Shown in pieces: positions 2,488 to 31,308 of a stretch of DNA of 37,138 bases. Each line of letters starts with the position of its first letter. Position 1 is the stretch's first letter. The notes below the pieces were generated by a model that did no database searches, was not told where the DNA came from, and was given only the letters and a program-made list of their open reading frames with translations. The translations under genes and the position numbers were made by a program. Location: contig JABLUY010000306.1 of NCBI GenBank assembly GCA_013306675.1, positions 1 through 37,138 on the forward strand, given 5' to 3'. This DNA comes from Thraustochytrium sp. TN22 (Eukaryota > Sar > Bigyra > Thraustochytrida > Thraustochytriidae).

Positions 2488-3567
2488 TTAGTGAGTGCTG
2501 ACAGTGAGATCTGCCCGGTTCAGGTCGCCTTGAGTTTGACTGGGGACACGCTCACGAGCGGTCTGCCGTATGCTTCCATCGGCGCTTCGAGTTCCGAACG
2601 AGGAGCCGCCGCCCTCACTTTTGCGCCCCCCACGAAACGATCGAATTGTCGATGCTGACGAGACTTTGGGAGGGACCCAGAGCGACTTCGAAATGCTCAA
2701 GACGCCGATAATGTTGAGGATGATGTCCGTCGGCAGTAGCAGCCAGTCCACGAGCCTCAGGTAAGCCTTGCTACCGGGTATTCCAGCGAGGTCGGACCAA
2801 ATTGAGATCATGCCCGGCACACCGAGCGTGACCATGGTGGAGAGAATCATCCAGCTCCCCCAAAACAGATTCTTCCGCGCGGTTTTGCGCAGGCGCTCAC
2901 TGCTCGCGCACGAAATCTTGGCATGCTGCATGCTCCTCGTATGCTGGCCTACGGCGTGCACGAAGAGGAAGAGCAAGCCCCCGGAGACTCCATTGTCGAG
3001 GGCCGCGAGTATCATAATCATCGCCGACGGATAGTTGTACACGCACATGCCGTTCGGGAGGATGCGTCCTTGTACAACAGTGCTACCGATAAACGTCGCC
3101 AATGGCATGACTTTGACCGCTCGCGTCACAAAGGTGCGCACGAGCTGAACGCGTGGGTTCCTGTCATGTGCATGAATATTGGCACGCTGCACGAGGAGGA
3201 AGGACGTGCACACGTGTGCTGCGATGTAGGCTGTCGGCCCGAGAGTGCCGGACGCGCAGCACGCGGCCCAGTTCCACTCGTACGAGCTGTACATGACGCT
3301 AATGAGCCCAAACACGCACGTGGCAAGGGCAAGGACCATGTGCCCGACCACGTACCGAAAGGCCTGCTGCTGCGCTTTGTTGCGCTTGACGCGAGGCGCG
3401 AGCATTGCGAGGAGTACATTCACCAGCAGGCATGCGAGAAAGCCTGCCCACATAAGCACCACGCGTGTCTTCTCGAGGACATCATACACGTGACTGTCCT
3501 CGAAGCCGTCCACCTCCAGATACGTGGTCGCCTCCGAGCGCACCAGGTGGTCGCGAAGCAAAGGCAT
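2488..3567 (-). CDS. seven-helix membrane protein, paralogue 2 (unknown function)
   Basis: A 359-residue ORF starting at the ATG at 3567; the longer frame to 3657 would start on TTG. About seven hydrophobic segments are present (first around residues 38-58, last around 272-293), with a Ser/Arg/Gly-rich cytosolic-type tail of ~65 residues. It shares with the 89-1216 protein the G-R-I-L-P-N-G-M-C-V-Y-N-Y-P loop, the L-F-x-H-A-V segment and the R-K-N-L-F-W-G-S-W motif, so both belong to one locally duplicated family. Its first codons and 5' flank are copied again ~304 bp upstream (3862-4165), giving a decoy start region without the body of the gene. It could be an orphan G-protein-coupled-receptor-like protein, but no family-diagnostic motif supports that. 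Confidence 0.75.
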   Translation of the reverse strand: MPLLRDHLVRSEATTYLEVDGFEDSHVYDVLEKTRVVLMWAGFLACLLVNVLLAMLAPRVKRNKAQQQAFRYVVGHMVLALATCVFGLISVMYSSYEWNWAACCASGTLGPTAYIAAHVCTSFLLVQRANIHAHDRNPRVQLVRTFVTRAVKVMPLATFIGSTVVQGRILPNGMCVYNYPSAMIMILAALDNGVSGGLLFLFVHAVGQHTRSMQHAKISCASSERLRKTARKNLFWGSWMILSTMVTLGVPGMISIWSDLAGIPGSKAYLRLVDWLLLPTDIILNIIGVLSISKSLWVPPKVSSASTIRSFRGGRKSEGGGSSFGTRSADGSIRQTARERVPSQTQGDLNRADLTVSTH

Positions 3568-4165
3568 GGTGCGATAAACGTTTGCTGAGCACTCCAGTGC
3601 ACTGGCAAACAGTCGTTCAGCTCTACAGTGCGGGAGAACTGAGGCTTTGACGTGCAACGAACGGATTTGAAAAATTCAAAGGACCTCTCCATGACCAGTA
3701 ATTTATCTTAGGCAAAAGCGAGGCTTCGCTGCAGATGTAAAGTCAGGTGTGTACAGATCGACTGTGCACGAGATTGCCCACACAGCCAGCAGCTTTTTCT
3801 GCTCAAGCCCTTCTGCTCTCATTTTCTCGGCTCTGCACTACCGCCAGAGGGCACTCGCTTGCCAAAGGCATGGTGCCATGCCCGTTTGCTGAGCACTCCA
3901 GTGCACTGGCAGACAGTCGTTCAGCTTTACAGTGCGCGGGGATCTGAGGCTTCGACGTGCAACGGCTTTGCATCTCCAGTACCAGTGACTTCCTGGTAGG
4001 CCAAAGCGAGGCTTCGCTGCAGTAAGGCTAGGTGTGTGGCTTCACAGATCGACTGCGCCCACGCAGCCAGCCAGCGGCTTTTTCTGCTCAAGTCCTTTCC
4101 CCGGCCCTGCACTGGACAGCACCGCCCCAAGGACCCGAAGGACCTCTCGCGCTCGCGGTGCCCCG
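3558..4165. repeat. two-copy tandem duplication, period ~304 bp, of the 5' end of the 2488-3567 gene
   Basis: Copy 1 (~3558-3861) and copy 2 (~3862-4165) share several blocks in the same order: aaaggcatggtg at 3560 and 3864; gtttgctgagcactccagtg; gacagtcgttcagct; gaggcttcgacgtgcaacg; gcgaggcttcgctgcag; cagatcgactg; and agctttttctgctcaag. Copy 1 includes the true start codon (complement of cat at 3565-3567). Copy 2 has diverged mainly by substitutions and small indels. The unit is therefore promoter, leader and first codons, duplicated without the coding body. Confidence 0.8.
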
Positions 4166-4781: not shown

Positions 4782-5548
4782 ATGGCGCAGGAGCGCGAGG
4801 CGCGGATCGCGGCCGCGCTCGCGGACCCGGCCGACGGCGTCGTGGAGTAGGTTGGCTTGCTTTCCTTGGGCCTTAGGTTTTCGAACGCGCGCGAGGGCGG
4901 CTGGCGCGAGCGAGGGCCACTGACAGCAACCGCGCACACGTGGTGCAACGCGACAGCCTACGCGGCCAGCGCCTGGACGACAAGAGCGCCGTCAAGCTGC
5001 ACAAGGAGCTGGCCAGGCACGGCGCCCAGGTCAAGGTCTTCCGGTGAGTCTGCGCGGGCGGGAGGCAGGGAGGAGAGAGGGAAGATGGGGAGGGAGGGCT
5101 CAGGCGGCGACTGACGTGACGCACGGCGCAGGCTCGACTTCAACCACCTCAGCTACAAGGGGCTAAAGGCCCTGCACGACGACCTGACCGCGAGCTCTGT
5201 GCGCGAGATTCAGTACGTACTGTCGGCGGCGGGGAGCGGGCGCCGAGACAGGACAGACTTTCTCACTCACGTATGATTTTGCTTGCGCCTTGTGCACGCA
5301 GCCTGGGCTCCAACGAGTTCGGCTCCGAGTCAGCCGACCTCTGGCGCGATGTGCTCACGGGCAAGCAGCTCCAGATCCTCAAGTACGTGCGCGCCAGCCC
5401 CATGGCGTTCTCCTGTGGCGCATCTCGCGTGGCCTCAGCTCTGACGGTGTGTTCACGCGCGCAGTTTGCGGTACTCGGACCTCGGCGCGGCCGGCATCAA
5501 CGCGCTCGCCGATGGGCTCCGCCAGAACACCTCACTAGAGGAGCTCGA
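4782..5548 (+). CDS. 5' exons of an LRR protein, probably the N-terminus of the ROCO gene continuing at 8260
   Basis: Five exons can be read: 4782-4846, 4927-5043, 5132-5212, 5302-5382 and 5465-5548. Each intron starts GT (gtaggt, gtgagt, gtacgt) and ends AG, and every one is in phase 2. After a short charged N-terminus, exons 3-5 each encode one 27-28 residue leucine-rich repeat of the ribonuclease-inhibitor/NLR type (L-x-F-x-x-L-x-x-x-G-L-x-A-L pattern). Exon 5 ends at gtacgt (5549), but the intron runs into mobile-element-like DNA. The phase matches the next plausible exon at 8260, and joining the eight exons gives one open frame of ~1584 codons. I infer a single gene with an insertion in intron 5. 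The alternative is a truncated LRR gene abandoned upstream of a separate ROCO gene. Confidence 0.65.
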
Positions 5549-5599
5549 GTACGTTTGGTCGCTCTCGCATCACCCACGCCGTGCCCTCGGATCGCTGAC

Positions 5600-8040
5600 G
5601 CACACTCCCATAGCCCAATCCCATCGCCCTAGACGGAGTTTAATCAGGATAGCCATATTATCCCTAGTAAATCGGCTCTCCTGCTTGCGCTCGACTGACC
5701 TGTTGCTATCATGATTCTAATCATTTTTGGAACTTTCAACTACTGGGTTTGTATGGAAGCGTAAAGTGTTGGTCACTTCCGACTGGCCTGTGCGGATGCT
5801 GAGGCCAACTTGGGCTGCATCAAGGGCACGATGGACTCGTGCTGAGGCTGCTGCGAGAGGATCTTGAACTATGGCTTGATGGGGTGTCGGTGTAGCTGGC
5901 TTGGGCTACGTGGTCGTTCCTGCTCTGCGCTGTAGGGGTACCGGACGAGGCACTGGCGCTGCTCGAATCGACATGATCGAGGCAAATGGGCGAAGGTGTT
6001 CCGTTGACGTTTGTCTTGCGCTTCTTGAAGCCTTCGTGAGGCTCGACGCGCACGCGCGTGTGCCACTTGGAAAAGCAGGTTGTGCGTTCATTCTTTCTCA
6101 TGAACACGTGCAGAGGCACACCGCAGATGGTGCAACGACGGTGCGTTTGCTTGCCGCAGATGACGCAGAGCCGCTTGGCGGGAATCCTCTTGTTGTTGGC
6201 GTTGAAGGATGCCTTTCCCGCTGCCTCTGAGTCATGTTGCAGTGCGGCATCGAGGCGGATGTCGCGGGCTTGGCCGTGGTTGAAGAACTTCTGCAACTCG
6301 GGGGTTCGCTTGCGCTTACCGGCGGTCACGAGGTCCCTCGCCGCTTCCCTGGTGAGCCCAGTGGGCTTGGGCATGCTTGGCTGCATGTTGAACTCCACCT
6401 GCGCCGTATCGAGCTGCCTGCTCCTGTAGACGTGACGGACCATGTCGACAGTGAGGCGGAACGAGACAGTGCTGAGCGCTTCAGAGCGGTTCACCTTGTC
6501 GCGGAGGGCCTTTAGCCCGTCGCTGTCTTCGAGGTTGCTCTTCCTCGCAGCCTGTAAGTAGCGGTAGACCACGATGGCGTTGACAACGAGCTGCTTGTAC
6601 GTGCGCAACGCGATGTTCTGGTCGCAGCTCAGATTCATGCACTGCGTGTTGGTGATCTGCTCCACGTACTGTGTGCTTCCGTCGACGCCGCCCTTTGCGA
6701 CGTTGTATAGCTCCTGCGGTAAGCACTTGATGACATGCACGGGCCGCATGGGCCCCTTCAGAGCGACAAGCTTGCGCATGGCGCGCCACAGCCGGAAGTG
6801 CGAGCTCAGCACCGCCCCCTCCTCCTCGCCGAAGATGGCAGGTGGCTTGGGCGGCGCACCCGCTGTCGATGCTCTGGTGCGCCCATGTCGTGAGCTTGTC
6901 CGCCCACGGTTTCAGAGCGCGCTCCATGGCGAGCCGGGCGTCCGGAGGCACTTCAACGAGGCAGGCGTACAAACACGAACTCGTGCTGGCAGCAACGTAG
7001 AGCACGTGATCGATTTGGAGGACCACAGCTTGGTGCAAGACTTGCGCGCGGTGCTCGGCAGGTATGGCCTTCCACCAAGTCTCGTCCCCCACGTGTTCAT
7101 CTGGGTGCTCACGATACGTGCGTCTACCGCGCCTCCAGGCGCGACGCGCGTCTTGATCTCGACGCTGCATAGTACTGACGATGCGTCGCACTCCGCGCCT
7201 GGAAGCCGGACGCGAGCGACTCCATCCGGCGAGACTGCGAGCCCCGGAACGGTCTTGTGCTGAATGAGGCCGACCTCGAACATGCACTCGCACCACGCGT
7301 CGGTTCGACGACCAACGCAAGTCAGTCTACGAAGTCTTGCAGCGCAGCGGCCTCAGCACGCGCATCCTAGTCGCCAAGCTCCTCTCCTTCTTCGTCTTCG
7401 TCCCCTGTGTCCCGCTTGTCCAGGGGCACGAACTCGCTGTCGCTGTCGCTGTCGCTGTCGTCCTCCACGCGGTGGTTAGGCCTCGCCGATGCCATGATGT
7501 CGCAGTGCGGGCCCGACTCCACGTCCAAGCGCTGCGGCAGGGGCGTGCGAGCTGAGAGCAGGCACAAGGCACCCGCCAGGGCCGCCTGCAGCCGCGCGCC
7601 GCAGCGCCTGCGGCTCCAGCGCGCTCCGCGACGAAGTCGCGCGCGAGCTCCCCCCAAAGCCGCTCTGGGCGAACTGCCGAGCTCATCTCATCCTAACCAC
7701 CACGCCTTCGGCCAAAATGAATAGGGGGCAGGAGCCTTGGGTCGCTTCGAGTGGGCCTCTTCAAGCTCGGCCCCATCGCTGCGTTTTTGATCGAATGCGG
7801 AACTAACTTCGCCAGACTCTAGGCCACTTTTTTGGAGCAAATCGGGAGTAAAGTACCCTCTTAATACGCTTTAGTGCCCCCTGTGCCGGGCGTCACCGAG
7901 GGACCCCCGCGTGGTAGGCGGATACGAGTAAGCATAGAGGTGTGATTGGGATAGTCTTGGCTCGGGCAACTTTGATGGCCGCCTCGACTACTCGGCGCTT
8001 CAAAAGGCGTACGTTGACCGCTCCCTCCCACGCTCGCCCT
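5600..8040 (-). mobile_element. decayed piggyBac-related insertion within the LRR/ROCO gene
   Basis: This block separates LRR exons that are otherwise closely spaced, and it contains an antisense, frame-disrupted ORF with nuclease and piggyBac-like parts (5820-7495). Its base composition is less GC-extreme than the flanking exons, particularly near 5640-5780 and 7760-7960. TTAA tetranucleotides, the target-site duplication used by piggyBac elements, occur at 5640-5643 and 7861-7864. I could not find convincing terminal inverted repeats next to them, so the borders are approximate. A possible LRR exon remnant ending at a gtacgt donor lies near 7955-8008. Confidence 0.5.
5820..7495 (-). pseudogene. 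YqaJ-like PD-(D/E)XK nuclease joined to a piggyBac-like C-terminus, frameshifted
   Basis: Read from 7495 downward. First comes an acidic Asp-Ser repeat N-terminus (to ~7370). Next is a segment with F-E-V-G-L-I-Q-H-K-T, then S-P-D-G (~7229-7218), then V-E-I-K-T-R (~7163-7146), then a V-L-H-Q-A-V-V-L-Q helix. This is the residue order of YqaJ/lambda-exonuclease-type PD-(D/E)XK nucleases. Downstream is K-G-G-V-D-G-S-T-Q (Asp at ~6683), like the G-G-V-D segment holding the last catalytic Asp of piggyBac transposases. A Cys/His-rich tail (6060-6167: C-x2-C, C-x2-C-G-V-P-L, C-F-x-x-W-H-T) resembles the piggyBac C-terminal zinc-binding domain. Only ~60 residues separate the nuclease from G-G-V-D, so most of the DDE core is absent. 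The frame changes near 7365, 7130 and 6880, so it is probably inactive unless unseen introns restore it. Confidence 0.55.
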
Positions 8041-8259
8041 TTTCCATTACGTCACCTTGAACCGCACTGACGCCATCCGTGCAGACCCCGGGCGGATGCC
8101 CGCTTCAAGTCGCGTCGCTTCACCAACTTTGGTTGGCGAACCACCCAGCAATCCAGGTGCGTGCGCGAGCAGCAGCAGCAACAAGGCCTCGCGCTCGCCG
8201 ATCACGAGCGGCTCGCGCTCACGAGCGGATGGAGCTGACGATTGCGCGCCGACCCACAG

Positions 8260-11200
8260 TACTTCGCCCGTGCAGCGGACTCCGCTCGCGCTTTCGACGG
8301 AGATGCTCCAGGCGCTCGCAGCCCTGGCCGGGGCCATCAAGTCCCATCCCAAACTTCGCAAGCTCAGGTACGTTCCGTGTCTCGCTCGGTCGCTCGCTTG
8401 CTGGCTCGCCCGCTGACGCAGACACTATCCTACAGCGTCCCGACCAACGCGCTGGGCGTGGAGGGTATCGAGAAGCTTGGCGCCGCCCTCGGGCCCCAGA
8501 GCGCGATCGTGGAGCTCGAGTACGTTGCACGCCCTTTTTCTCCTTGCTTGGCCAGCCTGCAGCGTGCAGTCGCACTAACTTGCGCAACCTCGCGCCCGCA
8601 TCTCAGCCTGCAGGTCAACGACCTGAGCGCCCTTTGCGCCGAGAAGCTTGCAGTGGCGCTCGCTGGCAACAGCAGCCTAGAGTCGCTCAACCTGGCCACC
8701 AACAACCTAGGTACTGCCGTGAAGGGCCCCGACGGCGACGTGGACGGCATGAGCGTGCTGGCGGACCAGCTGCTCGCGTCCAACACGACGCTCACGCACC
8801 TCAACTTGAGCCGCAACCAGATCACCGGGGACGGCATCAAGGCGCTCGGCGCAGTTCTCGCCAGCAACACCTCGCTGGAAGTCCTTATCCTGGACGAGAA
8901 CCGCATCAAGAACGATGGCGCCGAGGCCCTTGCCGAGATGCTGAGCGCCAACGGGCACCTCCGAGAGCTGCACGTTGAGGGCAACCACATCACCAGCGAG
9001 GGCGTCCAGCGCATCGCCGACGCTCTGGTGGACAACGGCGCACTGGAGGTCCTGAACCTGGCGTGGAACTCGGCGGACGCCCTGGGCGCAATCCAGCTCG
9101 CCCAGATGCTTCAGCGCAACCTCGCGCTCAAGGAGCTCTCGCTTCACGGCAACCAGGTTGGCGCCGAGGGTGCGGCCGCGCTCGCCGAGGGTCTTGCGGA
9201 CAACTCAGGCCTCGCCAAGCTCGGGCTCTGGTACAACGGCATCGGTGACTACGGCGCCAATGCGCTCTCGTGCATGTTTGGCATCAACAAGTCCCTCCGC
9301 ACGCTCGACCTGCGCGAGAACGGTATCGAGCACGGAGGCGCGCGCGCGCTTGCCAAGCAGATCCTCCTAAACTCGACCCTGGAGGTGCTCGACTTGCACA
9401 AGAACCCGGCCATTCGTCTGGCAGACTGCATCTTTCTTTCCCTCTGCGGTGGCGCCCGCGTCGAACATGACGTGGCGAGCAACGACCGCCGCGTGGAGGT
9501 AGCCGTGGAGACCGGCGCGCGGTTCCGCGAGCAGGGTGCCGAGCCGGAGATGGTGCCCGAGGAGATTTTGGAGTCGGACCGCCCGTACAGCGCGCTCAAC
9601 ACGGAGCAGTACTTTCGCGACCTGCTCAAGGGCAAGCTGGGCGAAATCACGCACCTCAAAGTGCACGTGGTGGGTGCCAAGGGCGCTGGCAAGACGAGCC
9701 TGGTCCAGGCACTTCAGCGCAGCCTAGCGCCTGCCCGCGGCGGCCCGCAGCAAGGCAAGGACGAGGAAGCGGCCGAGGAAGCGGTCGAGGAGGAGGAGGA
9801 CACCGTCGTTGGTGATGATGATGATGATGATGATGAGGAGGAGGAGCAGGAAGATGACGACACGAGCGAGGCGCCGACCAAGCCCGTGCGATCCAATCGG
9901 CCTGTACAGAGTCGTTTCCGCAAGGACGTCGACTTCGACGAGGACGAAGAAAGTGAGGACGCGCCGCCGAGCACGGTGGGCCTCGTGGCGAGCGAGCTGC
10001 AAGGCGACGAGCGCGCCTCGGCGCCGCCCATTGCCATCTTCGACTACGGTCGCGAGGCCGAGCCGTACCTGACCCACGCCCGCTTCCTGGCGAATCGGGC
10101 TGTGGTAGTCCTGGTCGTGGACCTGACGGAGCTGGGCGATGAAGATGAGGTTGACGATGAACGCTTCGACGCGCTCGTGGGCAACTGGGTGCGCGTCATG
10201 TCGGTGCAGATGCATCGGTCGCTACTGTGTGTGGTCGGCACCAAGGGCGACCAGCTCGGCTCGTACGAGGCGTCAGCGCGCATGGAGCTGCTGCGTTTCC
10301 GGTACGACGAGCTGCTCGAGCAGCTGGCCGAGGAGGCGCGCAAGGACGCCGGGCGTGGCGTGTGCGGCGCCGTGAGGCCGTTGCGGCTGGCGCAAGAGGC
10401 CTTCTTCGTCGTGAGCGCCCGAGACGAGGACTTCGGCGACGGCCTGTGCGCGCTGAGCGATGTGCTCGCCGACCTGGCGCGCGACCCGGAGCTGGGCTTG
10501 GCGCTGCGCGTGCCTGCGTCGTACGCCGCGCTGGCCAAGTACCTGCGCGGCCACGCCGACGAGGAGGGTCCTGCGGTTCTGGACCTCACCGCGGCGCGCC
10601 AGGAGGCGGGCTTTGATGACAACGAGGGCGGCTTTCATGTGGCGCTGCGCCTCCTGCACGAGCTGGGTGCGGTCGTATGGCTGGAGATGTCCACGATCGG
10701 CGGCGCGGTGAGCAGCAGCGCGGCGCGCGTCCGCGAGGTGATCATCACGCGGCCCAGCATGGTCCTGGCCATGATGCGGTCCATCTTCCAACACGAGGGC
10801 CAAGCGCCAGCCCTGGAGGATGCGGACGCGAACAGCCAGATCGGCGGCGACGAGGGTGCTTCCGAGGAGAAGGAGGGGAATTTGGGGAATTTGGCGATGT
10901 TGGACATCCTCAAGGAGATGTGCATCCTGCAGGAGGACCTCCTGTGCACCTTTCCCCTTGCGGGCGTTGGCCAGTGGGGGGATCTGTCCGAGGCGGACCG
11001 CACGCTGTTTCTGGACTTGCTGTGCGAGTTGGATGTCCTGTGCGAGGTAGCTGCGGCGGGCGGCGAGTTGGACGAGGAGCTGGAGGAGGCGCTCGCTGGC
11101 AACGTGACCGAGGCCGCAGATTTGGTGCTGACCTCGCGGTCCTTCCGTGTGCCGCAGCTCTTCGAGATGCTTGCGGGCCACGATCAGCGGCGGTCGGCGA

Positions 11201-12741
11201 CGGAGCAGCAGGCGCTGCGCAGCTTGCAGCCGCGTTCGGAGCGGTCCTCGCTGCGCACAAGTCTGTCGCGGCTCATGGCCCTGTCGGTCTCGCATGCGGC
11301 GCACTGGCACTTCGAGTTTGCCTCGGCGGCACCGAGTGGGCTCTTTTCGCGTCTCGTGGCCAAGCTGCACGGCCTCATGAGCATCCGCGAGCTCAACGAC
11401 CACTACGTGCATGGGGAGGTGGAGTTCGAGGGTCGCGCCGACAAGCTAGGCACGCAGTACGACCCGGTGAACGTGAGCGTGATGTGGGCGCAGGACGCCG
11501 ACCGGCGCGGCCGTCTGCACCTGCGTGCCGAGTCGACGTCGGGCCGCGACGCGAATGAGTCGCCCGTGATCTTGCGCCGCGTGCTGGCGCAGGTGCTTCG
11601 GCGCCTGGACTTTCTCCTGGGCGGCTTTGGCAATCTCCCGCGGTACGAGTTCGTGCTGTCGACGGACCCGCGCTGGGGCGTGACGCGCCAGGAGCTGGCG
11701 CGGCCCGACGAGAACGGCCAGGTGGCGCTGCGGCTCCTGGTTGTCCGTCAGGTGTCGCCCATCGACGTGCCGCGATATGGCCTGCACGCGCAGATGCGCT
11801 TCAAGCTCCAGGATGCAGAGACGCTGTACCGAACGGTGTTTCCGCCGGCGGTGCTGCAGGCGCGCGTGCGCGTGGGCATTGGCATGAACGGCGAGGACCT
11901 GTGGATGTTCAAGCAGCAGATGCGCATTGACCTGCGCATCCTCCTCCAGCGCGGCAGTGGCGAGGTGATGGTATCTCCGGACGAGGCACTTTGGTACCTG
12001 GAGCAGCTTGCCCTGCTCAAGGGTCGCGCGCAGCTGGACCTCACCAACTCTGATGAGCTTGTGGACGTCTTTGGTCTCAAAGGCTCGGACCTGCGTACGG
12101 CGCAGCTGCTCTGCAAGCTGTACGCCAAGTTTCGGGAGGGCTCACTGAACGCACGCGAGGCGCAGGTGCTCATCTACTGTATTGCCAAGCTCGAGACGCG
12201 CGTGCGCATGAAGTACGATGTCTGCCTGCTGCGGAGCCGCGGCTACGACCGCATCAGTGGTACGCAGCGCGAGTACGCGCAGGAGCTCTTTGACGAGCTG
12301 ACACAGGTGCATGGACTCGAGTGTATCATGCTCGAGGACGACTCCTTCGGGCCGGACCACGTGGAGGCCATCAACGAGTCCCACGTCGTGCTCTGCTGCC
12401 TCTCGCTCGCGTACACCCGCAAGCTGCGCGAGAGCGGCAAGTCCCGCGAGGCTGCCTTTCTCAAGAACGTGCCGAAGAACCACTGCAAGACCGCCTTTGA
12501 ACTCGCGCGTGAACAGCGCGGCACCTCCGACGCGCTCCTCGCCGCCCGTCTCGACCCGGCCGTGCCCATGGACAGGAGCAATTTGCCGTGGTTTGACATC
12601 CACAAGGTCTTTGACCTGACCAATCGCCGTCGTCGCGTGCTCGAGGAGTCCGTCACGGCCGTCGCTGACGCGATTCTGCGCCACGTCTTTCCCTTTGACA
12701 AAGACGCGGCCAAGCGTCGCGAGCTGTCCTGCGTCTATTGA
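8260..12741 (+). CDS. ROCO-family protein: LRR-Roc-COR with C-terminal TIR-like domain
   Basis: Exons are 8260-8367, 8436-8519 and 8607-12741, with phase-2 introns (gtacgt donors). Numbering below assumes joining to the exons at 4782-5548 (~1584 residues). About fifteen 28-residue LRRs run to ~490, including canonical L-x-L-x-x-N-x-I units. The Roc GTPase domain has a P-loop G-A-K-G-A-G-K-T (563-570), a DxxG-type switch D-Y-G-R-E (686-690) and T-K-G-D (752-755). A long Asp/Glu-rich insert (~590-630) lies between the first two. COR follows (~840-1100). From ~1410 there is a TIR-like fold: Y-D-V-C-L-L start, a V-V-L-C-C-L-S strand, then C-K-T-A-F-E-L, where the E-L resembles the conserved alpha-C glutamate of TIR domains. 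The family consists of multidomain GTP-binding signalling proteins (LRRK2 relatives, without the kinase here). An immune or stress sensor role is inference. The TIR call rests on pattern only. Confidence 0.8.
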   Translation, partial: YFARAADSARAFDGDAPGARSPGRGHQVPSQTSQAQVRSVSRSVARLLARPLTQTLSYSVPTNALGVEGIEKLGAALGPQSAIVELEYVARPFSPCLASLQRAVALTCATSRPHLSLQVNDLSALCAEKLAVALAGNSSLESLNLATNNLGTAVKGPDGDVDGMSVLADQLLASNTTLTHLNLSRNQITGDGIKALGAVLASNTSLEVLILDENRIKNDGAEALAEMLSANGHLRELHVEGNHITSEGVQRIADALVDNGALEVLNLAWNSADALGAIQLAQMLQRNLALKELSLHGNQVGAEGAAALAEGLADNSGLAKLGLWYNGIGDYGANALSCMFGINKSLRTLDLRENGIEHGGARALAKQILLNSTLEVLDLHKNPAIRLADCIFLSLCGGARVEHDVASNDRRVEVAVETGARFREQGAEPEMVPEEILESDRPYSALNTEQYFRDLLKGKLGEITHLKVHVVGAKGAGKTSLVQALQRSLAPARGGPQQGKDEEAAEEAVEEEEDTVVGDDDDDDDEEEEQEDDDTSEAPTKPVRSNRPVQSRFRKDVDFDEDEESEDAPPSTVGLVASELQGDERASAPPIAIFDYGREAEPYLTHARFLANRAVVVLVVDLTELGDEDEVDDERFDALVGNWVRVMSVQMHRSLLCVVGTKGDQLGSYEASARMELLRFRYDELLEQLAEEARKDAGRGVCGAVRPLRLAQEAFFVVSARDEDFGDGLCALSDVLADLARDPELGLALRVPASYAALAKYLRGHADEEGPAVLDLTAARQEAGFDDNEGGFHVALRLLHELGAVVWLEMSTIGGAVSSSAARVREVIITRPSMVLAMMRSIFQHEGQAPALEDADANSQIGGDEGASEEKEGNLGNLAMLDILKEMCILQEDLLCTFPLAGVGQWGDLSEADRTLFLDLLCELDVLCEVAAAGGELDEELEEALAGNVTEAADLVLTSRSFRVPQLFEMLAGHDQRRSATEQQALRSLQPRSERSSLRTSLSRLMALSVSHAAHWHFEFASAAPSGLFSRLVAKLHGLMSIRELNDHYVHGEVEFEGRADKLGTQYDPVNVSVMWAQDADRRGRLHLRAESTSGRDANESPVILRRVLAQVLRRLDFLLGGFGNLPRYEFVLSTDPRWGVTRQELARPDENGQVALRLLVVRQVSPIDVPRYGLHAQMRFKLQDAETLYRTVFPPAVLQARVRVGIGMNGEDLWMFKQQMRIDLRILLQRGSGEVMVSPDEALWYLEQLALLKGRAQLDLTNSDELVDVFGLKGSDLRTAQLLCKLYAKFREGSLNAREAQVLIYCIAKLETRVRMKYDVCLLRSRGYDRISGTQREYAQELFDELTQVHGLECIMLEDDSFGPDHVEAINESHVVLCCLSLAYTRKLRESGKSREAAFLKNVPKNHCKTAFELAREQRGTSDALLAARLDPAVPMDRSNLPWFDIHKVFDLTNRRRRVLEESVTAVADAILRHVFPFDKDAAKRRELSCVY
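9807..9845 (+). repeat. GAT/GAG trinucleotide tract coding poly-Asp/Glu
   Basis: A run of gat followed by gag codons in the ROCO reading frame, inside the Roc domain between P-loop and switch motifs. Such tracts commonly vary in length; here the frame is kept because the unit is a triplet. Confidence 0.8.
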
Positions 12742-13063: not shown

Positions 13064-14347
13064 TCACTCCAAGTCGCTGTCGGCGAGCTTGGCATCGTTA
13101 GCGTCCGCGGCCTCGTCCGCGTAAATGCTCTCGGCCATCTGCCAGACCTGTACGACGTTGTCCTCGGCGACGCTGGAGATGACCCAAGGGTCGTTGGTGT
13201 TCCAGGAAAAGTCCGAGACCGTGGCGGTGTGGCCGCCATGAATGAAGAGCAACTCGGGCGCGCCGTCGGCGGCGTCTTCGGCAGCCTGCTCCTCTCCAAT
13301 GCGACTCAAGTCCCAGACCATGACGCGGCGGTCGGCGCTGCACGAGGCCATGATGGCCTCGCTAAAGGGCGCCCACTCGACCTTGTAAATGTCGTCCTTG
13401 TGGCCCTCGAAGGCGTGCAAGGGCGCGGAGAGCTTGCGCATATCCCAGAGCTTGACAACGTGCTCGCTGCCGCCGGAGAGCATGAGGAAGTCGTGAAAGG
13501 GCGAGAAGGAGAGCGTATTGCCGCCGCCCGCGTGCGCCTGCGCCGAGGACGCAGGCTGCGCCGTGCCCTCGCCCAGCGCGCGCAGGTCCCAGAGGCAGAG
13601 CGCTCCGTCGTCGCCGATGGAGCCGAAACGGTCCGGGTGCTTGCAGTGCCACTGCACGTCACCCACCACCGAGCCGTTGTGCGCGGCGAGCTTGTTGAGC
13701 GGCGCCACGGCACCCGTGACAGAGTCAGCTGCGGCGCGAATGTCCCAGCGGCAGATGGAGCCGTCGTCGGCGCTGCTGAGCACGTGACCCTCGCGCAGCG
13801 AGCTCCAGTCCAGGCCGTAGCCCTCCTTGTCATGGCCGGCGCAGCGAACGTTGGGCTGCGCGGGCCCGTCGCCCGCCGGCGTGGACTCGTGGTCGCGCAC
13901 GTAAAAGACGTGCACCTCGCCCTTGTTCGTCTTGGTGCCGATGATGTAGTCGTCCTGCGGCATGTACCGCGCGCGGTTCACCTCGCCGTCATGGTTGATG
14001 CGTACCTTGACCTCAACCTTGCTCGCCGTGCCGCCGTAGCCGCCCAGCTCGCCCCGCTCGTCGTCATACTTGCGCGCGTCGATGCTCGCGTCCTCCTTGG
14101 GCAGCCGCACGCGCGCGATCAGCAGGTGGTTCTGCGCGCCCTCCGCCGTGTGCGTGCCCAGCAGCAGCTCCTGCTCCGAGTAGTCCTTGTCCGGGAACTT
14201 GCTCTTGCGCTCCAGCCACTGCACCGTCAGGCTCGGCCACTCCAGCGCATGCGTCAGCACCAGGTCGTACAGGAACGGCGTGTTCTTCTTCCACACCTTG
14301 TACTCATCCGCCACGCCCTTTTGCTCCGCCTCCTCCTCCGCCTCCAT
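13064..14347 (-). CDS. RBBP4: RBBP4/MSI1-type histone-binding WD40 protein
   Basis: 427 residues, almost the same length as human RBBP4 (425), from an ATG at 14347 with no intron. The N-terminal helix region (about 14-80, with V-W-K-K-N-T-P-F-L-Y-D and L-E-W-P-S-L-T-V-Q-W-L) is the histone-H4-binding CAF1C domain diagnostic of the RBAP46/48-MSI1 family. It is followed by a WD40 propeller (about 110-405) with clear repeats such as G-H-K-D-D-I-Y-K-V-E-W and S-C-S-A-D-R-R-V-M-V-W-D. The family chaperones H3-H4 in CAF-1, PRC2, NuRD, Sin3-HDAC and related nuclear complexes. The sequence is intact and ends with an acidic tail. Its 5' leader carries a GGC repeat. This is among the most secure calls in the window. 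Confidence 0.97.
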   Translation of the reverse strand: MEAEEEAEQKGVADEYKVWKKNTPFLYDLVLTHALEWPSLTVQWLERKSKFPDKDYSEQELLLGTHTAEGAQNHLLIARVRLPKEDASIDARKYDDERGELGGYGGTASKVEVKVRINHDGEVNRARYMPQDDYIIGTKTNKGEVHVFYVRDHESTPAGDGPAQPNVRCAGHDKEGYGLDWSSLREGHVLSSADDGSICRWDIRAAADSVTGAVAPLNKLAAHNGSVVGDVQWHCKHPDRFGSIGDDGALCLWDLRALGEGTAQPASSAQAHAGGGNTLSFSPFHDFLMLSGGSEHVVKLWDMRKLSAPLHAFEGHKDDIYKVEWAPFSEAIMASCSADRRVMVWDLSRIGEEQAAEDAADGAPELLFIHGGHTATVSDFSWNTNDPWVISSVAEDNVVQVWQMAESIYADEAADANDAKLADSDLE

Positions 14348-14363
14348 CCTCCCCGCGCCGCGC

Positions 14364-23611: not shown

Positions 23612-24658
23612 ATGGCCGGCGCGGCGATGACGGGCGGCGTCGCGGCGCCGATGGTGTCGCTCCGCACGGAGCAGGCGGCCGCCGCGGCGGTGGCGGCCGC
23701 CACGGCGGCGTACGGGGTGTACAGCGCGGGCGAGGTGCAGCGGCTGCGGCGCGAGGAGGCGGAGCTGGCGGCGCGCACGGGCAAGCCGCAGCGCAAGCCG
23801 TGCGCGGACAAGCTGCAGGACCACCCGCTGGCGGCATGGGTGATTGGTAACGCGTCGGTGGCGCTCACCACGGCGCTGCGCTACAAGCTGCTGCGCGAGA
23901 TCTCGCAGAAGGACTCGTGGGGCAAGAACTTTTTGCGCACCCTGGCCGGCAACGTCATTCAGATCGACGTCCTCGTGGCCTGGCACAAGATTCTCATCAA
24001 CTACGTGTACGGCCACGTGCCGTTTTTCTCCGACAAGCGCAAGAAGCAGACCGTCCTGGAGGTGGTGACGGACTACCTCAAGTGCAACCTGGTCGTGAAC
24101 GCGGTCGCAGCAGTCCTGAGCACCACGGACTTTCACATGACCAGAAATCCGGAGCCCTTTCGCGGCCTGGCCAAGTGGCGCCCGCTGCGCTTCTTGCTGC
24201 GCCTCATGTGGATCCGCTTCTTCGTGGACATGCTCTTCTTCGCTGGCCACAAGGTGCTGCACCACAAGAAGGTTTACTCGTGGGGCCACCGCACGCACCA
24301 CGGTCACTCGCACACGCAGCTGACCACCAACTACCACTTCGACTCCTGGGACCTCTTCATCGAGGGCAGCCTGCCCTTTGTGGTGGGCAGCTTCCTCTAC
24401 GGCAAGGTCTTTGGCGTGGCTCTCAGTCAATTCGACACGGCGCTCATCGTCAGCTACGTCTACTGGCTCGAGGTCGAGTCGCACGCCGGCAAGCCCATGC
24501 CTACCATGTCACTCCTGGCGCCGCTCTCCCCCTGGACGCAGCGCTACGACGACTGGGCCTCCTGGGCGCACGAGGTACACCACCGGGTCCTCCACTGCAA
24601 CTACTCCATCATGCCCTGGGTCGACTACCTCGCCGGATCCCTTCGCCTTGAGCTATAA
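23612..24658 (+). CDS. fatty acid hydroxylase/sterol desaturase superfamily protein, copy A
   Basis: 348 residues from ATG 23612; in-frame ATGs at 23627 and 23651 are alternatives, the last matching the paralogue starts best. The membrane-type di-iron histidine boxes are intact: H213-x3-H217, H226-x2-H229-H230 and H320-x2-H323-H324. They are followed by N-Y-S-I-M-P-W-V-D-Y-L-x-G, matching the superfamily ending N-Y-x(n)-W-D-x-x-x-G-T. A hydrophobic N-terminal helix (about 24-40) precedes a family signature K-P-Q-R-K-P...Q-D-H-P. Members (ERG3/ERG25-like, alkylglycerol monooxygenase-like) use O2 and di-iron to hydroxylate or desaturate lipids in the ER membrane; the substrate cannot be told here. 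First of four tandem paralogues; copies B-D lie downstream of an intervening ROCO-TIR gene. Confidence 0.9.
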   Translation: MAGAAMTGGVAAPMVSLRTEQAAAAAVAAATAAYGVYSAGEVQRLRREEAELAARTGKPQRKPCADKLQDHPLAAWVIGNASVALTTALRYKLLREISQKDSWGKNFLRTLAGNVIQIDVLVAWHKILINYVYGHVPFFSDKRKKQTVLEVVTDYLKCNLVVNAVAAVLSTTDFHMTRNPEPFRGLAKWRPLRFLLRLMWIRFFVDMLFFAGHKVLHHKKVYSWGHRTHHGHSHTQLTTNYHFDSWDLFIEGSLPFVVGSFLYGKVFGVALSQFDTALIVSYVYWLEVESHAGKPMPTMSLLAPLSPWTQRYDDWASWAHEVHHRVLHCNYSIMPWVDYLAGSLRLEL

Positions 24659-24873
24659 AAATGAACAAAATTGTCAACGTGAGCACTCGCATTCGGAATG
24701 CATGCAACACCAGATGAATGCAACTCTTGGCTGCTCGTTCCAGAACGGCCACGCGACACGTAGATGAGAAAAGAAAGGCCCCGCGCCTCACTTCGCCGGC
24801 GAGGCAAATCGAGGACGCGGGGAGAGCGCGTGCAGGGCGAGGACCTGGCGGAGGTTGAGCCGGCAAGCTCTTC

Positions 24874-27054
24874 ATGCAGGTGCGCAAGGAGGCGCTCCTG
24901 CTGCTGCTGGAGGCGGTGTCGGCCGAAAGGACTCGTCGCGCGCGGCTTTCGCTACGGCAGGCCGCCGAGGCTCTTGGCCAAGGCGCACGATCTTCGCTGC
25001 ATCGCGGCTCGGGCGGCTCCTCGACGGCGAGGGACGCGCCTCTGCCCACGGACACGCCCCGCACCCCGGTGCTCTCAGAGGAAGAAACGGCGCAGCAGTT
25101 CGAGCTGACGGAGACGGACCAGGCGGCGCTGCACGGCAAGGCCGAGGAGGGGTCGGGGGTGAGCTTGACGATCTGGGACTACGGCGGTCAGCAGGTGTTT
25201 TACGCACTGCACCACATCTTCCTCACGGACAAGGGCCTGTACCTGGTGGTCTTCGACATGCGTGAGGTCCTCCGACGTGAGACGTGCAGCAAAGCGGTGG
25301 AGTACCTGCGCTTCTGGCTCAACAGTATCGAGCTGCACGCGCAAGGTGCACCGGTGCTCCTGGTCGGCACCTACCTCGACCAGGTACACCGCGCGGCTGA
25401 CTTGCGCCTGGTGGACCGCACACTGCGGGCGCCCCCACTTCAGGCGGACAAGATTCCCACGCTGGTCAAGCCGGCGGGGCGCCGCGTGTTCTTCGCGGTG
25501 GGCAACTGCAGCAGCGACCCGGAGCGGGCATCGGAGCTGCGCAAGGCCGTTGTGGCAGCGGCCTTGCGGCAGGATTACATGAAGCAGGAGGTACCCCTGG
25601 CATGGCTCAAGGTGCACGAGGAGCTCCTGCTGACGAAGGAGCCCTTTATCGCGTACGAGACGGTCCTGGAGATGGCGGGAAGCTACGGATGCTCGGGGGC
25701 GGAGGTGGACGCGATACTGCTGTACTTTCACGGGCTCGGGGTGGTGGTGCACTTGCGCGGATCGGAGACGCTGGCGCGCGTGGTGGTTCTGGAGCCCCAG
25801 TGGCTGTTGGACAAGCTGGCTTGCGTCATTGCTGCCGGTATACACGTTGGCGCAACGCAGCTGGAGCTCGAAAAGACCGGCAAACCTGTGCTCCAGGCTG
25901 CCTTTCAGCGGCTGCGGCGCGACGCGCTCGCCTCGCGCGCCTTGCTCGAGTGGCTCTGGCGCGGGCAGGAGGTGGATTGCCGGCTGGCATTCATGGAGGA
26001 GAACATGCTCATTGCGTTTTGGGCCTTTGGCGACGACGCGCGCACCGACGAGGTCTACATGGTCACTGGCCTGCTGGGCGTGCTGGATGGCGCCGCGCCG
26101 CTCGAGCTGGGCGATTTCTCGCCTGGCTTGGCCTGCGAGCTGGACTGCAGCCGGCTGTATCTGCCGGACGGCGTCTTCGAGCGCCTCATCGCGCAGGCGG
26201 CTAACTACGCCGCGCACCTTGGCGTCGATGCGCTGCAGCCGCGGAACGGCCGGCACGCAGCGCTCATGGCCTTTGGCTCGGACCGCTTCTCCATCCGTGT
26301 GCAAGGCGATGTCTTGCGCATCACGGTCGATGCGGCGGCCGAGCGCCCGGTGCTTGTCCTCAAGCTGGTCGTCTCCATGTTCCGCAAGCAGCAGGAGGCC
26401 GTCTTCGCGCGTCTGCCCTGGGAGCTCACGGTAGTGAGTCCGGTTTCGGGTGCAGTCGTGGCGTACGTGGCACTTCTCGCGCTGTGGGCCCCGGGCTCCA
26501 CGAAGCGCGTCGAGGCGGTGCGCCCTCGCAAGACCAAGGTGTCTGTGGGGGAGTTCGACCGCTTCTTCCAGGCCGGCGCACATTTCGACCCGGACGCTGA
26601 TGACGACGAGCCCGTTCAGCTGGCCGTGCCGGCGCTTGGTCCGGACGAGTCGAGCCACGTGTTTCTCTGCCACGACAACGCGGGTATCGCCGGCGACCTC
26701 GCCCGCAAGCTCGAGCGCCGCGGTGTCGTCGTCGCCGGGACGCAGGGCGCGGAGATCGCTTCAGATGGTGCAGGGTCGCGCGTCGTGGTGCTCGTGCTCA
26801 CCGTGGGCGTCTTCTCGAGCTCCGCCGTCCGCGAGGAGCTCCGCGCTGCTGTGGATCTTGGCAAGCGCGTCGTGGTGGTCCACGAGGCAGACCCCTTTCG
26901 GCCAACCTTTGCGCCTTGGTCTGCCTACGTCGCATCGGTGCCTTCGTTTCTATCCTTTCTTCTGGCCGACCCGGCCGCCTCGCTTGCGCTGCGTCGCAAG
27001 TACTTCGAGCAAGAGGCGTTCATGTCCGCACTTGCGGACGCCTGCTTTCGGTAG
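24874..27054 (+). CDS. Roc-COR protein with C-terminal TIR-like domain, no visible P-loop
   Basis: 726 residues from ATG 24874. The Roc second half is clear: W-D-Y-G-G-Q-Q-V-F-Y-A-L-H-H-I-F (switch II, Asp ~102), L-Y-L-V-V-F-D-M-R-E, and V-G-T-Y-L-D (~164-169), comparable to T-H-L-D in LRRK2. COR follows (~230-400, with V-V-L-E-P-Q-W-L-L-D-K-L). From ~593 a TIR-like domain begins S-S-H-V-F-L-C-H-D and contains L-T-x-G-V-F-S-S-S-A-V-R-E-E-L-R and G-K-R-V-V-V-V-H-E. The first ~90 residues hold no G-x4-G-K-S/T loop and no LRR, and I see none in the 215 bp upstream. The gene is either 5'-truncated, has a missed upstream exon, or encodes a Roc that does not bind nucleotide normally. It sits on the plus strand between hydroxylase copies A and B. 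Confidence 0.75.
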   Translation: MQVRKEALLLLLEAVSAERTRRARLSLRQAAEALGQGARSSLHRGSGGSSTARDAPLPTDTPRTPVLSEEETAQQFELTETDQAALHGKAEEGSGVSLTIWDYGGQQVFYALHHIFLTDKGLYLVVFDMREVLRRETCSKAVEYLRFWLNSIELHAQGAPVLLVGTYLDQVHRAADLRLVDRTLRAPPLQADKIPTLVKPAGRRVFFAVGNCSSDPERASELRKAVVAAALRQDYMKQEVPLAWLKVHEELLLTKEPFIAYETVLEMAGSYGCSGAEVDAILLYFHGLGVVVHLRGSETLARVVVLEPQWLLDKLACVIAAGIHVGATQLELEKTGKPVLQAAFQRLRRDALASRALLEWLWRGQEVDCRLAFMEENMLIAFWAFGDDARTDEVYMVTGLLGVLDGAAPLELGDFSPGLACELDCSRLYLPDGVFERLIAQAANYAAHLGVDALQPRNGRHAALMAFGSDRFSIRVQGDVLRITVDAAAERPVLVLKLVVSMFRKQQEAVFARLPWELTVVSPVSGAVVAYVALLALWAPGSTKRVEAVRPRKTKVSVGEFDRFFQAGAHFDPDADDDEPVQLAVPALGPDESSHVFLCHDNAGIAGDLARKLERRGVVVAGTQGAEIASDGAGSRVVVLVLTVGVFSSSAVREELRAAVDLGKRVVVVHEADPFRPTFAPWSAYVASVPSFLSFLLADPAASLALRRKYFEQEAFMSALADACFR

Positions 27055-28428: not shown

Positions 28429-28900
28429 CGAAGCGAGCACGCCGAGAAGAGGTTGCCAAGTCCAGAGCAAGCCATGGCTCACCCACTGGCGCTGCTCATG
28501 ACGTGAGCGTCCGACCATCACCAGCAGTGCACTAAGCGTCATCCAAGAACATCACCAACCAGACCGCGGCGGCCTGCATTCAATGCCAGCCCCGTGTGCA
28601 GCGGCCGCGCGCGCGACGCGCGCGGGGGAAAAATCGAAGCCGTGTGACTCTCCTGCCGACCACGGTCCGGGTGGCGGACCGGCGGGTTCACGCGGTTCAC
28701 GCGCAGAAGGCTGGTTCTCCTCCTCCAAGTCGAAGGACCAGACCAAGGCCGGCAAAGGCAAAGGCAAAGGCAAAGCAGAGCCCGGACGACCCCGGCCGCG
28801 AGCGCGCCGAGCGGCGCGCACAGCGAGCGGCAGCGTCCCTCGACGTGGTGGTGGTCGTCGTGGCCGTGGACGTCGTCGTCGTCTTTGGAGTCTCTGGAGC
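27663..28900. other. intergenic region upstream of hydroxylase B; GA microsatellite
   Basis: Contains a (GA)n tract at 28397-28429 and a ggcaaa hexanucleotide run at ~28752-28777. Short ORFs on both strands have no recognisable domain. The frame of hydroxylase B is open upstream to an ATG at 28583, but that extension is low-complexity and absent from its paralogues. Confidence 0.5.
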
Positions 28901-29935
28901 ATGGCGGCGGCCCGCGAGGCGGCGCCGCTCCTGTCGGTGCGCACGGAGCAGGCGCTGGCCGTGGCGCTGGCGGGCGCCACGGCCGCGTACGGGTTCGCGA
29001 CGGCCGATGAGGTGAAGCGCCTGCGCGAGGAGGAGGCGGAACGCGCGCGGGAGACGGGCAAGGCGCAGCGCAAGCCGAGCGCGGAGAAGGTGCAGGACCA
29101 CCCGGTGGCGGCCTGGATCATCAGCAACGGGTCGGTGGCCTGCGCCACGGCGCTGCGGTACGCGCTGGTGGGCGAGGCCGTGCAGACGGACTCGTGGCGC
29201 AAGACGTTCCTGCGCATGATGGCGGCTGGCGTGGTGCAGATTGACTTCCTCATCGCGTGGCACAAGGTGCTCATCAACCACGTGTACGGGCACGTGCCCT
29301 TCTTCTCGGACAAGCGCAAGGAGCAGACGGTGCTGGAGGTGCTGCTGGACTACACCAGGGGCAACCTCATCACCAACGCGGTGGCCACCTACATGGGCGC
29401 GTCCGGCTTCGTCAAGGCCAAGAATGCGGGCCACTTTGAGGGCTTGGCGAACTGGCGCCCGCTTCGCTTCTTGGCGCGCCTCATTTGGATTCGCTTCTTC
29501 GTGGACGTCTTCTTCTTCCTCGGCCACCGTATCCTGCACCTGAAGAAGGTCTACTGGTGGGGCCACCGCACGCACCACGGGCACTCACACACGCAGCTGA
29601 CCACGAACTACCACTTTGACTCGTGGGACCTCTTCATTGAGGGCACCGTGCCTTTCCTCCTGGGCAGCATGGCCTATAAGAAGGTGTTTGGTCGGGGCAT
29701 GGGCCAGTTCGAGGTGGCGCTCATGACCAGCTACGTGTACTGGCTCGAGATTGAGTCGCACGCCGGCAAGCCCATGCCCACCATGTCCACCATCGCGCCG
29801 CTCTCGCCCTGGACGCAGCGCATCGACGACTGGGCTTCTTGGGCGCACGAGGTCCACCACCGCGTCCTGCGCTGCAACTACTCCATCATGCCCTGGGTCG
29901 ACTACCTCGCCGGCACGCTGCGCCTCGACTTATAA
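28901..29935 (+). CDS. fatty acid hydroxylase/sterol desaturase superfamily protein, copy B
   Basis: 344 residues. Start ATG 28901 is chosen because the protein then aligns with copies A, C and D from S-V-R-T-E-Q onward; an in-frame ATG at 28583 would add 106 low-complexity residues. Histidine boxes are H209-x3-H213, H222-x2-H225-H226 and H316-x2-H319-H320. The family block W-W-G-H-R-T-H-H-G-H-S-H-T-Q-L matches copy A almost exactly. After the last box this copy reads H-H-R-V-L-R-C-N-Y-S where the others have His at the Arg position, an individual substitution in a stretch otherwise invariant in the array. The likely activity is di-iron-dependent oxidation of a membrane lipid; substrate unknown. 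It is ~340 bp upstream of copy C. Confidence 0.9.
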   Translation: MAAAREAAPLLSVRTEQALAVALAGATAAYGFATADEVKRLREEEAERARETGKAQRKPSAEKVQDHPVAAWIISNGSVACATALRYALVGEAVQTDSWRKTFLRMMAAGVVQIDFLIAWHKVLINHVYGHVPFFSDKRKEQTVLEVLLDYTRGNLITNAVATYMGASGFVKAKNAGHFEGLANWRPLRFLARLIWIRFFVDVFFFLGHRILHLKKVYWWGHRTHHGHSHTQLTTNYHFDSWDLFIEGTVPFLLGSMAYKKVFGRGMGQFEVALMTSYVYWLEIESHAGKPMPTMSTIAPLSPWTQRIDDWASWAHEVHHRVLRCNYSIMPWVDYLAGTLRLDL

Positions 29936-30273
29936 GTAAAGAGTGGGGACGGGAAGATAACGTCACGTACACGTCACGCACACTCATCACAAAAGGTCTG
30001 GCCACCTTGAAGCCGGACCGCGATGCTGCCAGTGCCGCTGGCTCGCGTTGCTGCTGGCTCGCGTTGACACTTGTTGTTGAAGTTGAAAGCGAGCCAGGCA
30101 AACTGGTCACGAGCAGAACGCCAACCCCGCGAGTTGAAGTCGAGCGCGGGCAGCTCGCGCGCGCGCGCCCTGCGTCTCAGGCTCGAGCGCGGCGCTGCGC
30201 CGCCGCTGCACTGCAGCCCGCCGCCGCCGTTGCTGTCGTCGTTGACGTCCGAGTCGTCGTGGTGCTCGGCGTC

Positions 30274-31308
30274 ATGAGCGTGCGCGCCGTGGACCCGGCG
30301 CTGGCGACGGCGCGCGCCGAGCAGCGGCTGGCCGTGGCGCTGCTGGCGGCCACGGCGGCGTACGGGCTGGCGAGCGCCAAGGAGGTGAAGCGGCGACGCC
30401 GCGAGGAGGCGGCCACGGCGGCGCGCACAGGCAAGCCGCAGCGCACGCCGAGCGCGGAGAAGCCGCAGGACCACCCCGTGGTGTCGTGGCTGCTGACGAA
30501 CGGGGCCATCGCGGGCAGCGTGGCGCTGCGGTTCGCGCTGACCGGGGAGCGCCGGCAGACGGACCCGAAGCTCACGACCTTTTGTCGGTCCTTTCTGGGC
30601 GGCCTGCTGCAGCTGGAGCTGGGCACGGCGTGCCAGGCCGCGCTCATCCACGGCGTCTACGGCCACGTGCCGTTCTTCGCGGACAAGCGGCGGAAGCAGT
30701 CCGTGCGCGAGCTGGTGCTCGACTACCTGTACGGCAACGTGGTCCTGTCGGCGATCGTGAACGCGGCGCTGCTAAATGGCTTCTACAAGCTCAAGGATCC
30801 GGGCCACTTTGCAGGATGGGCGCGATGGCGGCCCCTGCGCTTTCTGGGGCGCCTGCTGTGGATGCGGGTCTTCGTGGACGTCTGCTTCTTTCTGGGCCAT
30901 CGTGTGCTGCACCTCAAGCGGGTCTTCTGGTGGGGCCATCGCAAGCACCACGGGCACTCCCGAACGCAGCTGACCACAAACTGGCACTTTGACCCGTGGG
31001 ACCTCTTTGTCGAGGCCTCGCTGCCCGTCTCGCTCGGCATAGCCGCCTACGGTCACTGCTTCGGCGCTGTATTTGACCAGCTCGACGGCGCCCTTATCCT
31101 TGCGCACATTTTCTGGCTCGAGACCGCCAGCCACTCGGGCAAGCCCGTGCCGACCATGTCGCTGCTTGCCCCGCTCGCGCCCTGGACCCAGCGCTTCGAC
31201 GACTGGGCGCCCTGGGCGCACGAGCTACACCACCGCGTCATGCACTGCAACTACTCCATCATGCCGTGGGTTGACTACCTCCTGGGTACCTTGCGCCTCG
31301 ACTTGTAG
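30274..31308 (+). CDS. fatty acid hydroxylase/sterol desaturase superfamily protein, copy C
   Basis: 344 residues from ATG 30274, the start that aligns with its paralogues; the reading frame is open far upstream only because of base composition. Boxes are G-H-R-V-L-H (HX3H), H-R-K-H-H (HX2HH) and H-E-L-H-H (HX2HH), and the ending W-V-D-Y-L-L-G-T is the closest in the array to the superfamily W-D-x-x-x-G-T. It is more diverged from A and B in the middle part (e.g. the segment 110-180 and R for H in G-H-S-R-T-Q-L), which suggests an older duplication or a different substrate. The 5' flank carries ctgccagtgcc ~245 bp before the start. Confidence 0.9.
   Translation: MSVRAVDPALATARAEQRLAVALLAATAAYGLASAKEVKRRRREEAATAARTGKPQRTPSAEKPQDHPVVSWLLTNGAIAGSVALRFALTGERRQTDPKLTTFCRSFLGGLLQLELGTACQAALIHGVYGHVPFFADKRRKQSVRELVLDYLYGNVVLSAIVNAALLNGFYKLKDPGHFAGWARWRPLRFLGRLLWMRVFVDVCFFLGHRVLHLKRVFWWGHRKHHGHSRTQLTTNWHFDPWDLFVEASLPVSLGIAAYGHCFGAVFDQLDGALILAHIFWLETASHSGKPVPTMSLLAPLAPWTQRFDDWAPWAHELHHRVMHCNYSIMPWVDYLLGTLRLDL

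Follow-up and report, generated by a model that had tools for sequence, protein, structure and literature searches.

A piggyBac-like element at a splice site of a putative leucine-rich-repeat/Roc-COR/TIR receptor gene in Thraustochytrium sp. TN22, and the gene family around it

The thraustochytrid Thraustochytrium sp. TN22 (assembly GCA_013306675.1; 37.9 Mb in 453 contigs) carries on contig JABLUY010000306.1 two blocks of exons, within 4782-12741, that encode leucine-rich repeats (LRRs), a Roc-like GTPase and a TIR-like C-terminus and that are separated by a repeated element. The analysis covered positions 1 to 37,138 of the forward strand (hereafter the window; GC 65%). This locus raises the question of whether the two blocks belong to one receptor gene and, if so, what the element does to its product. 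The reading that we favour with fair confidence, on comparison of sequences, is that they form one gene for an intracellular LRR/Roc-like GTPase/TIR-like receptor, a divergent outlier of a large family of immune-receptor-like genes present in this genome, and that the element was inserted at the splice site of intron 5, with probable truncation of the product.

An initial annotation of the DNA had proposed exons at 4782-5548 and 8260-12741 separated by phase-2 introns with gtacgt-like donors, and this structure was recovered: eight exons were placed on the plus strand, all seven introns are in phase 2, and the donor is GTACGT in five of the seven, with GTAGGT and GTGAGT in the remaining two. 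Exon 1 (4782-4846) begins with an ATG and ends in phase 2, and is followed by exon 2 (4957-5043; 87 bp, phase 2-2), exon 3 (5132-5212; 81 bp), exon 4 (5302-5382; 81 bp) and exon 5 (5465-5548; 84 bp), each encoding one LRR. Beyond the element lie exon 6 of the initial map (8260-8367; LRR), exon 7 (8436-8519; 84 bp, one LRR) and the last exon (8607-12741), which carries more LRRs, the Roc-like GTPase, a weak COR and the TIR-like C-terminus. The coding bias in the predicted frame was 0.51-0.67 for exons 2-5 and 7, with negative values in the other two frames, and was weak (0.05) for exon 6. Joined together, the eight exons form an open frame of 1574 codons with a single terminal stop, so the claim that joining 5548 to 8260 keeps the frame open was correct (about 1584 codons had been given). 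As evidence for that junction it carries no weight, since all four of the alternative joins tried were open (1574-1616 codons) and openness by itself does not establish any one join. An LRR part made of one-repeat exons joined in phase 2 would allow whole repeats to be gained, lost or skipped while the frame stays intact, as was the case for the joins tried.

The element occupies 5614-7950 (2337 bp, inverted ends CCCAATC, coding sense on the minus strand), and comparison of its flanks identified a target-site duplication, ATAG, with copies at 5610-5613 and 7951-7954. The left copy is the native 3' splice site of intron 5: without the element, this intron is 5549-5613, which amounts to 65 bp with a GTACGT donor, a CTGAC word 15 nt before the exon and the ATAG acceptor. 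The initial annotation had described an antisense element invading intron 5; a repeated, antisense element does lie in 5549-8259, but it is not inside the intron. Immediately downstream of the right ATAG copy we identified an exon missed in the initial map (7955-8008, plus strand; 54 bp, phase 2-2, GTACGT donor). Its frame is open and reads LGSGNFDGRLDYSALQK following a split Asp, as an LRR exon, and its coding bias in the predicted frame was equalled by 3 of 2607 non-coding windows, which overlap and are not independent. A 72-bp piece at 8085-8156 (plus strand, phase 2-2) is a possible exon on phase and splice signals, and its coding bias was equalled by 208 of 2449 windows. A branch-point-like CTRAC word was found 14-21 nt upstream of the acceptors at 5613, 8084 and 8259; at that spacing it is present in five of six undisputed introns versus 6 of 141 non-genic AGs, and the CTRAC nearest to the right-hand ATAG lies 148 nt upstream (154 nt examined).

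Given that the ATAG was duplicated, the native branch point and acceptor remain upstream of the element, and the product is for this reason probably truncated, rather than the intron merely enlarged. Normal splicing would then enter the element, where the frame of exon 5, joined at the left end, runs through the split Asp and five further codons to a stop, leaving a predicted LRR stub of 138 aa, and a full product would need skipping to the acceptor at 7954, 8084 or 8259. The insertion is thus a case of target duplication at a splice site that strands the acceptor ahead of the transposon, and the element offers a natural experiment on how splice sites are chosen once a target duplication has produced a second copy of the acceptor.

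Across the genome, a COR-A profile search gave 46 matches (42 above the cut-off) and a TIR_2 profile search 126 matches at E 0.01 (114 above the cut-off), and the window gene is absent from both lists. A TIR match follows 901-1263 bp downstream on the same strand for 36 of the 46 COR-A matches; the second ROCO of the window is among the ten without one. In seven aligned family members, the second ROCO included, COR-A was found in all seven, Roc in six and TIR_2 in six. The ROCO chassis that had been suggested for the window gene is the design of a large family in the genome and not a one-off. Against the PDB, the family profile matched the Roc of LRRK2, COR segments in Roco-type chains, and SARM1/TIR proteins (1.8e-7 for SARM1 and 1.4e-8 for the TIR protein 3h16); the chains labelled 'Rab family' and 'Leucine-rich-repeat' are ones that we take to be prokaryotic Roco proteins. 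A search for prokaryotic relatives returned 51 stretches that fit a pattern, none of which was confirmed by tblastn. The second ROCO frame (24859-27054, plus strand) belongs to the ordinary members of the family, with its TIR reduced: it scored 693 bits with the family profile, its TIR_2 match was weak (0.048), and a P-loop pattern was not found in the forward frames of 23700-25200. Elsewhere, six TIR matches stand in tandem on contig C160 (192-5666) at a spacing of about 1043 bp, and four of the six contain an in-frame TGA.

The window gene itself appears to be a strongly divergent relative of this family, with Roc well supported, COR weakly, and TIR by Pfam and not by the family profile. Pfam matched the N-terminal LRRs (LRR_6, 2.4e-23), and the Roc-like GTPase (9655-10440, plus strand) shows a P-loop GAKGAGKTS and a G3 (DYGR, within IFDYGRE), together with GTKGD and VSAR. 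A family hidden Markov model built from eight family open reading frames (ORFs) scored 11.4 bits on the window gene, where the best of 200 shuffles reached 0.6, and hhalign aligned it to the family Roc with a probability of 91% (E 8.9e-7). The score of the window gene with each single profile was matched by 0 of 1000 shuffles for Roc, 1 for COR-A, 3 for COR-B, 1 for COR and 29 for TIR. The proposed combination of LRRs, GTPase and TIR-like domain (12208-12690, plus strand) was thus supported, with the reservation that COR is weak and TIR falls below the curated cut-off. Several results weigh against the reading that we favour. The Pfam matches to Roc (5e-4) and TIR_2 (1.2e-4, 23 bits, where the curated cut-off is 28) are both below threshold, no COR was called by Pfam, hhalign with the family aligned the Roc alone, and the family TIR profile scored -0.5. 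The AlphaFold models were poor (pLDDT 45 and 39), and the fold search gave no match at E 0.001, TIR chains appearing first from E 1.3. Matched by eye, the Glu of the C/V-x-x-E motif present in all seven aligned family members is replaced in the window gene by C-x-x-A, so that its TIR may not be catalytic. In addition, the seven private substitutions of the element copy, described below, may mean that the insertion is older than most or that the sequence there is faulty. A PDB search with the C-terminus gave 0 matches, and a genome search at E 0.001 with the C-terminal part (10600-12738) returned itself alone (two candidates scored).

Other arrangements of the locus were weighed against this evidence. 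Under the model of the initial annotation, the element simply belongs to a 2.7-kb intron, and expression of the whole gene runs through a 5548^8260 junction, which is effectively exon skipping. The joined frame remains open, acceptor 8259 has a CTGAC 21 nt upstream, and phase-2 one-repeat exons tolerate skipping; nevertheless, we hold this model to be rather unlikely, as the native branch point and the ATAG acceptor at 5613 are intact and far nearer the donor, the openness of the frame is uninformative with all four joins open, and a 5548^8260 junction leaves out one exon or more, the likely coding 7955-8008 among them. The 65-bp intron, the missed exon and the branch points together led us to reject, as our preferred reading, a harmless insertion within the intron. 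A two-gene arrangement of the locus, in which the element would separate a short upstream LRR gene from a downstream LRR-Roc-COR-TIR gene, is very improbable: a promoter could conceivably come from the element, and an internal in-frame Met is present near 8750, but phase, repeat register and donor type run unbroken across the gap, and the gap minus the element is an ordinary 65-bp intron.

The nature of the downstream half is a separate matter, as it might encode a P-loop GTPase of another kind, carrying LRRs and ending in a TIR-like tail, and not a ROCO protein at all. The missing COR-A call in the window gene, the COR profile score of just 3.3 bits and the hhalign alignment confined to Roc would suit such a protein. 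In contrast, only 1 shuffle in 1000 equalled that COR score and 3 in 1000 equalled the COR-B score, the Roc aligns to the Roc of the family, and the domain order is as in the family; we consider a GTPase of another kind unlikely.

The one-repeat exons of the window gene recur in the family. On contig C86, eight 87-bp phase-2 exons precede a Roc-COR-TIR exon, and the same contig has five near-identical 285-bp units, neighbouring units differing by 0-3 bases. Phase-2 exons of 84 or 87 bp were also found at L042 (four), L007 (two), L005 (one) and L008 (one), which with C86 makes five paralogue loci; the scan required phase 2 and a length of 78-93 bp and was thus confined to exons of that kind. 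A scan for open frame only gave LRR-like matches at the same five loci, none in the short flanks of L001, L004 and L006, and, for L003, one chance-like match inside Roc and nothing else. A genome search with the 285-bp unit gave 157 matches. Among 38 of these, hand-picked from 30 contigs, 16 (spread over 11 contigs) have a same-strand COR-A match within the next 8 kb downstream and 22 have none; a TIR match follows within 10 kb for 20 of the 38 and is missing there for the other 18. LRR exon units also form regular arrays at C398:312540-315422 (spacing about 276 bp), C11:72739-76405 (about 315 bp) and C407:94571-95713 (about 260 bp).

Given the resemblance of the family to an LRRK2-type Roc, a prokaryotic COR and a SARM1-type TIR, a mechanism can be suggested in which the LRRs bind a ligand or a guarded protein, a nucleotide-driven rearrangement of Roc-COR would bring the TIR domains together, and the clustered TIRs would consume NAD+ or make a signal. 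A wider proposal, which to us stands evenly balanced, is that the genome holds a large, fast-changing, NLR-like repertoire on a ROCO chassis, in which tandemly duplicating one-LRR phase-2 exons would supply the diversity, Roc-COR the switch and TIR the output.

The element, which appears to have multiplied recently, belongs to a set of closely similar copies. Its 363-aa ORF (5820-6911, minus strand), which has a Cys-rich end and corresponds to the C-terminal part of the element protein, has 112 genome matches, the window copy included, at 99-100% identity. A DNA search gave at least 60 matches, namely the window copy, 54 other long ones (1.8-2.36 kb) and five short ones, counts that are lower bounds as 40 of 106 candidates were scored. 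The loci retrieved gave 23 distinct flank pairs, of which 18 carry an identical 4-bp duplication (ATAT in 13, ATAG in 4 and CTAT in 1) and the other five do not. Whole copies were cut out from 26 of 31 loci (L010-L040), some of which show the same copy; 22 of the 26 are one identical sequence and the other four differ from it by 1-2 bases. The window copy has seven private substitutions relative to this common sequence, all inside 7308-7369 (62 bp), a stretch that adjoins the far side of an internal deletion point, and sequence error or gene conversion is a possible cause of the cluster. A 4127-bp copy on contig C109 matches window element positions 1-1685 at 98.4% and 1686-2337 at 97.9%, on either side of an internal gap; on this ground we rejected the window element as autonomous, and it reads as a non-autonomous, internally deleted derivative. 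The 865-aa ORF of the 4127-bp copy matched SgrT (0.0072), DDE_Tnp_1 (0.031) and YqaJ (0.062), all below cut-off, so that no transposase model passed the cut-off for this ORF, a part of which the window copy lacks. The piggyBac label is our assumption from motifs known for piggyBac transposons: the element resembles piggyBac in its 4-bp target duplication, inverted ends, KGGVD-like motif and Cys-rich C-terminus, and differs in targeting ATAT/ATAG instead of TTAA, in a YqaJ-like segment and in the lack of a transposase model over cut-off. Element copies are also nested in one another, frequently at a single position some 45 bp away from an end (e.g. C79:15964-25649, L020 and L031), and this nesting gives tandem and head-to-head arrays. 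A further ATAG insertion, at L010, is preceded by a CTAAC at a distance of 20 bp from the element, a splice-acceptor-like flank; such a setting was seen at two of three un-nested matched ATAG sites, the window's included, which is a tiny sample.

Apart from these features, the window contains three adjacent fatty-acid hydroxylase ORFs (28502-33633), a WD40 protein of RBBP4/CAF1-like type on the minus strand (13064-14362), and, also on the minus strand, two 395-codon frames (89-1276 and 2488-3675) that look by eye like multi-helix membrane proteins and gave no Pfam match over cut-off. In the genome at large, a search with PF00121 gave two TIM genes, and inspection by eye of the listed frames showed no GAPDH partner.

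Both ROCO-TIR fusions and phase-2 LRR exons in ROCO genes are already known, in other lineages. LRR-ROC-COR is given as the sole architecture of brown-algal ROCOs in the available text of the study describing them (PMC11378527), and these genes share with the present ones the LRR-Roc-COR order, one LRR per exon in phase 2, exon shuffling, family expansion and a proposed immune role. They differ in that their LRR exons are 72 bp, whereas those here are 81-87 bp, and in that the family here has a TIR as a further domain. A TPR-ROCO-TIR protein in Chondrus crispus (PMC11378527) and two putative TLRs with ROC and COR domains in Aplysia (PMC9334734) likewise combine Roc, COR and TIR in one protein, the Aplysia ones, being called TLRs, hence with LRRs; they are few genes of animal TLR type or TPR type, and LRR exon arrays go unmentioned in the available portions of both sources. 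The accessible part of a Roco review sets out three groups without using the word TIR (PMC6337361), and an atlas of eukaryotic TIRs has uncharacterised eukaryote-only clades, ROCO being absent from its main text as available (PMC13142454). With LRRK2 and prokaryotic Roco proteins the family shares the Roc and COR matches in the PDB, and it differs in having no kinase and a C-terminal TIR instead; with SARM1 and bacterial TIR NADases it shares the profile matches to SARM1 and 3h16, and it differs in the fusion of the TIR to LRR-Roc-COR and, for the window gene, in the absence (by eye) of the Glu.

A partial literature search returned no paper describing a large LRR-Roc-COR-TIR family that has arrays of LRR exons, and a large family uniting the two looks new against the literature searched. 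If true, the union of ROCO-TIR with LRR-exon shuffling in tens of genes would be new, and a compact genome holding over 40 COR-A matches would allow a test of whether the immune receptors of microbial eukaryotes are diversified through exon cassettes; the shuffling of LRR exons in ROCO receptors, for its part, would not be restricted to brown algae and could be connected to TIR.

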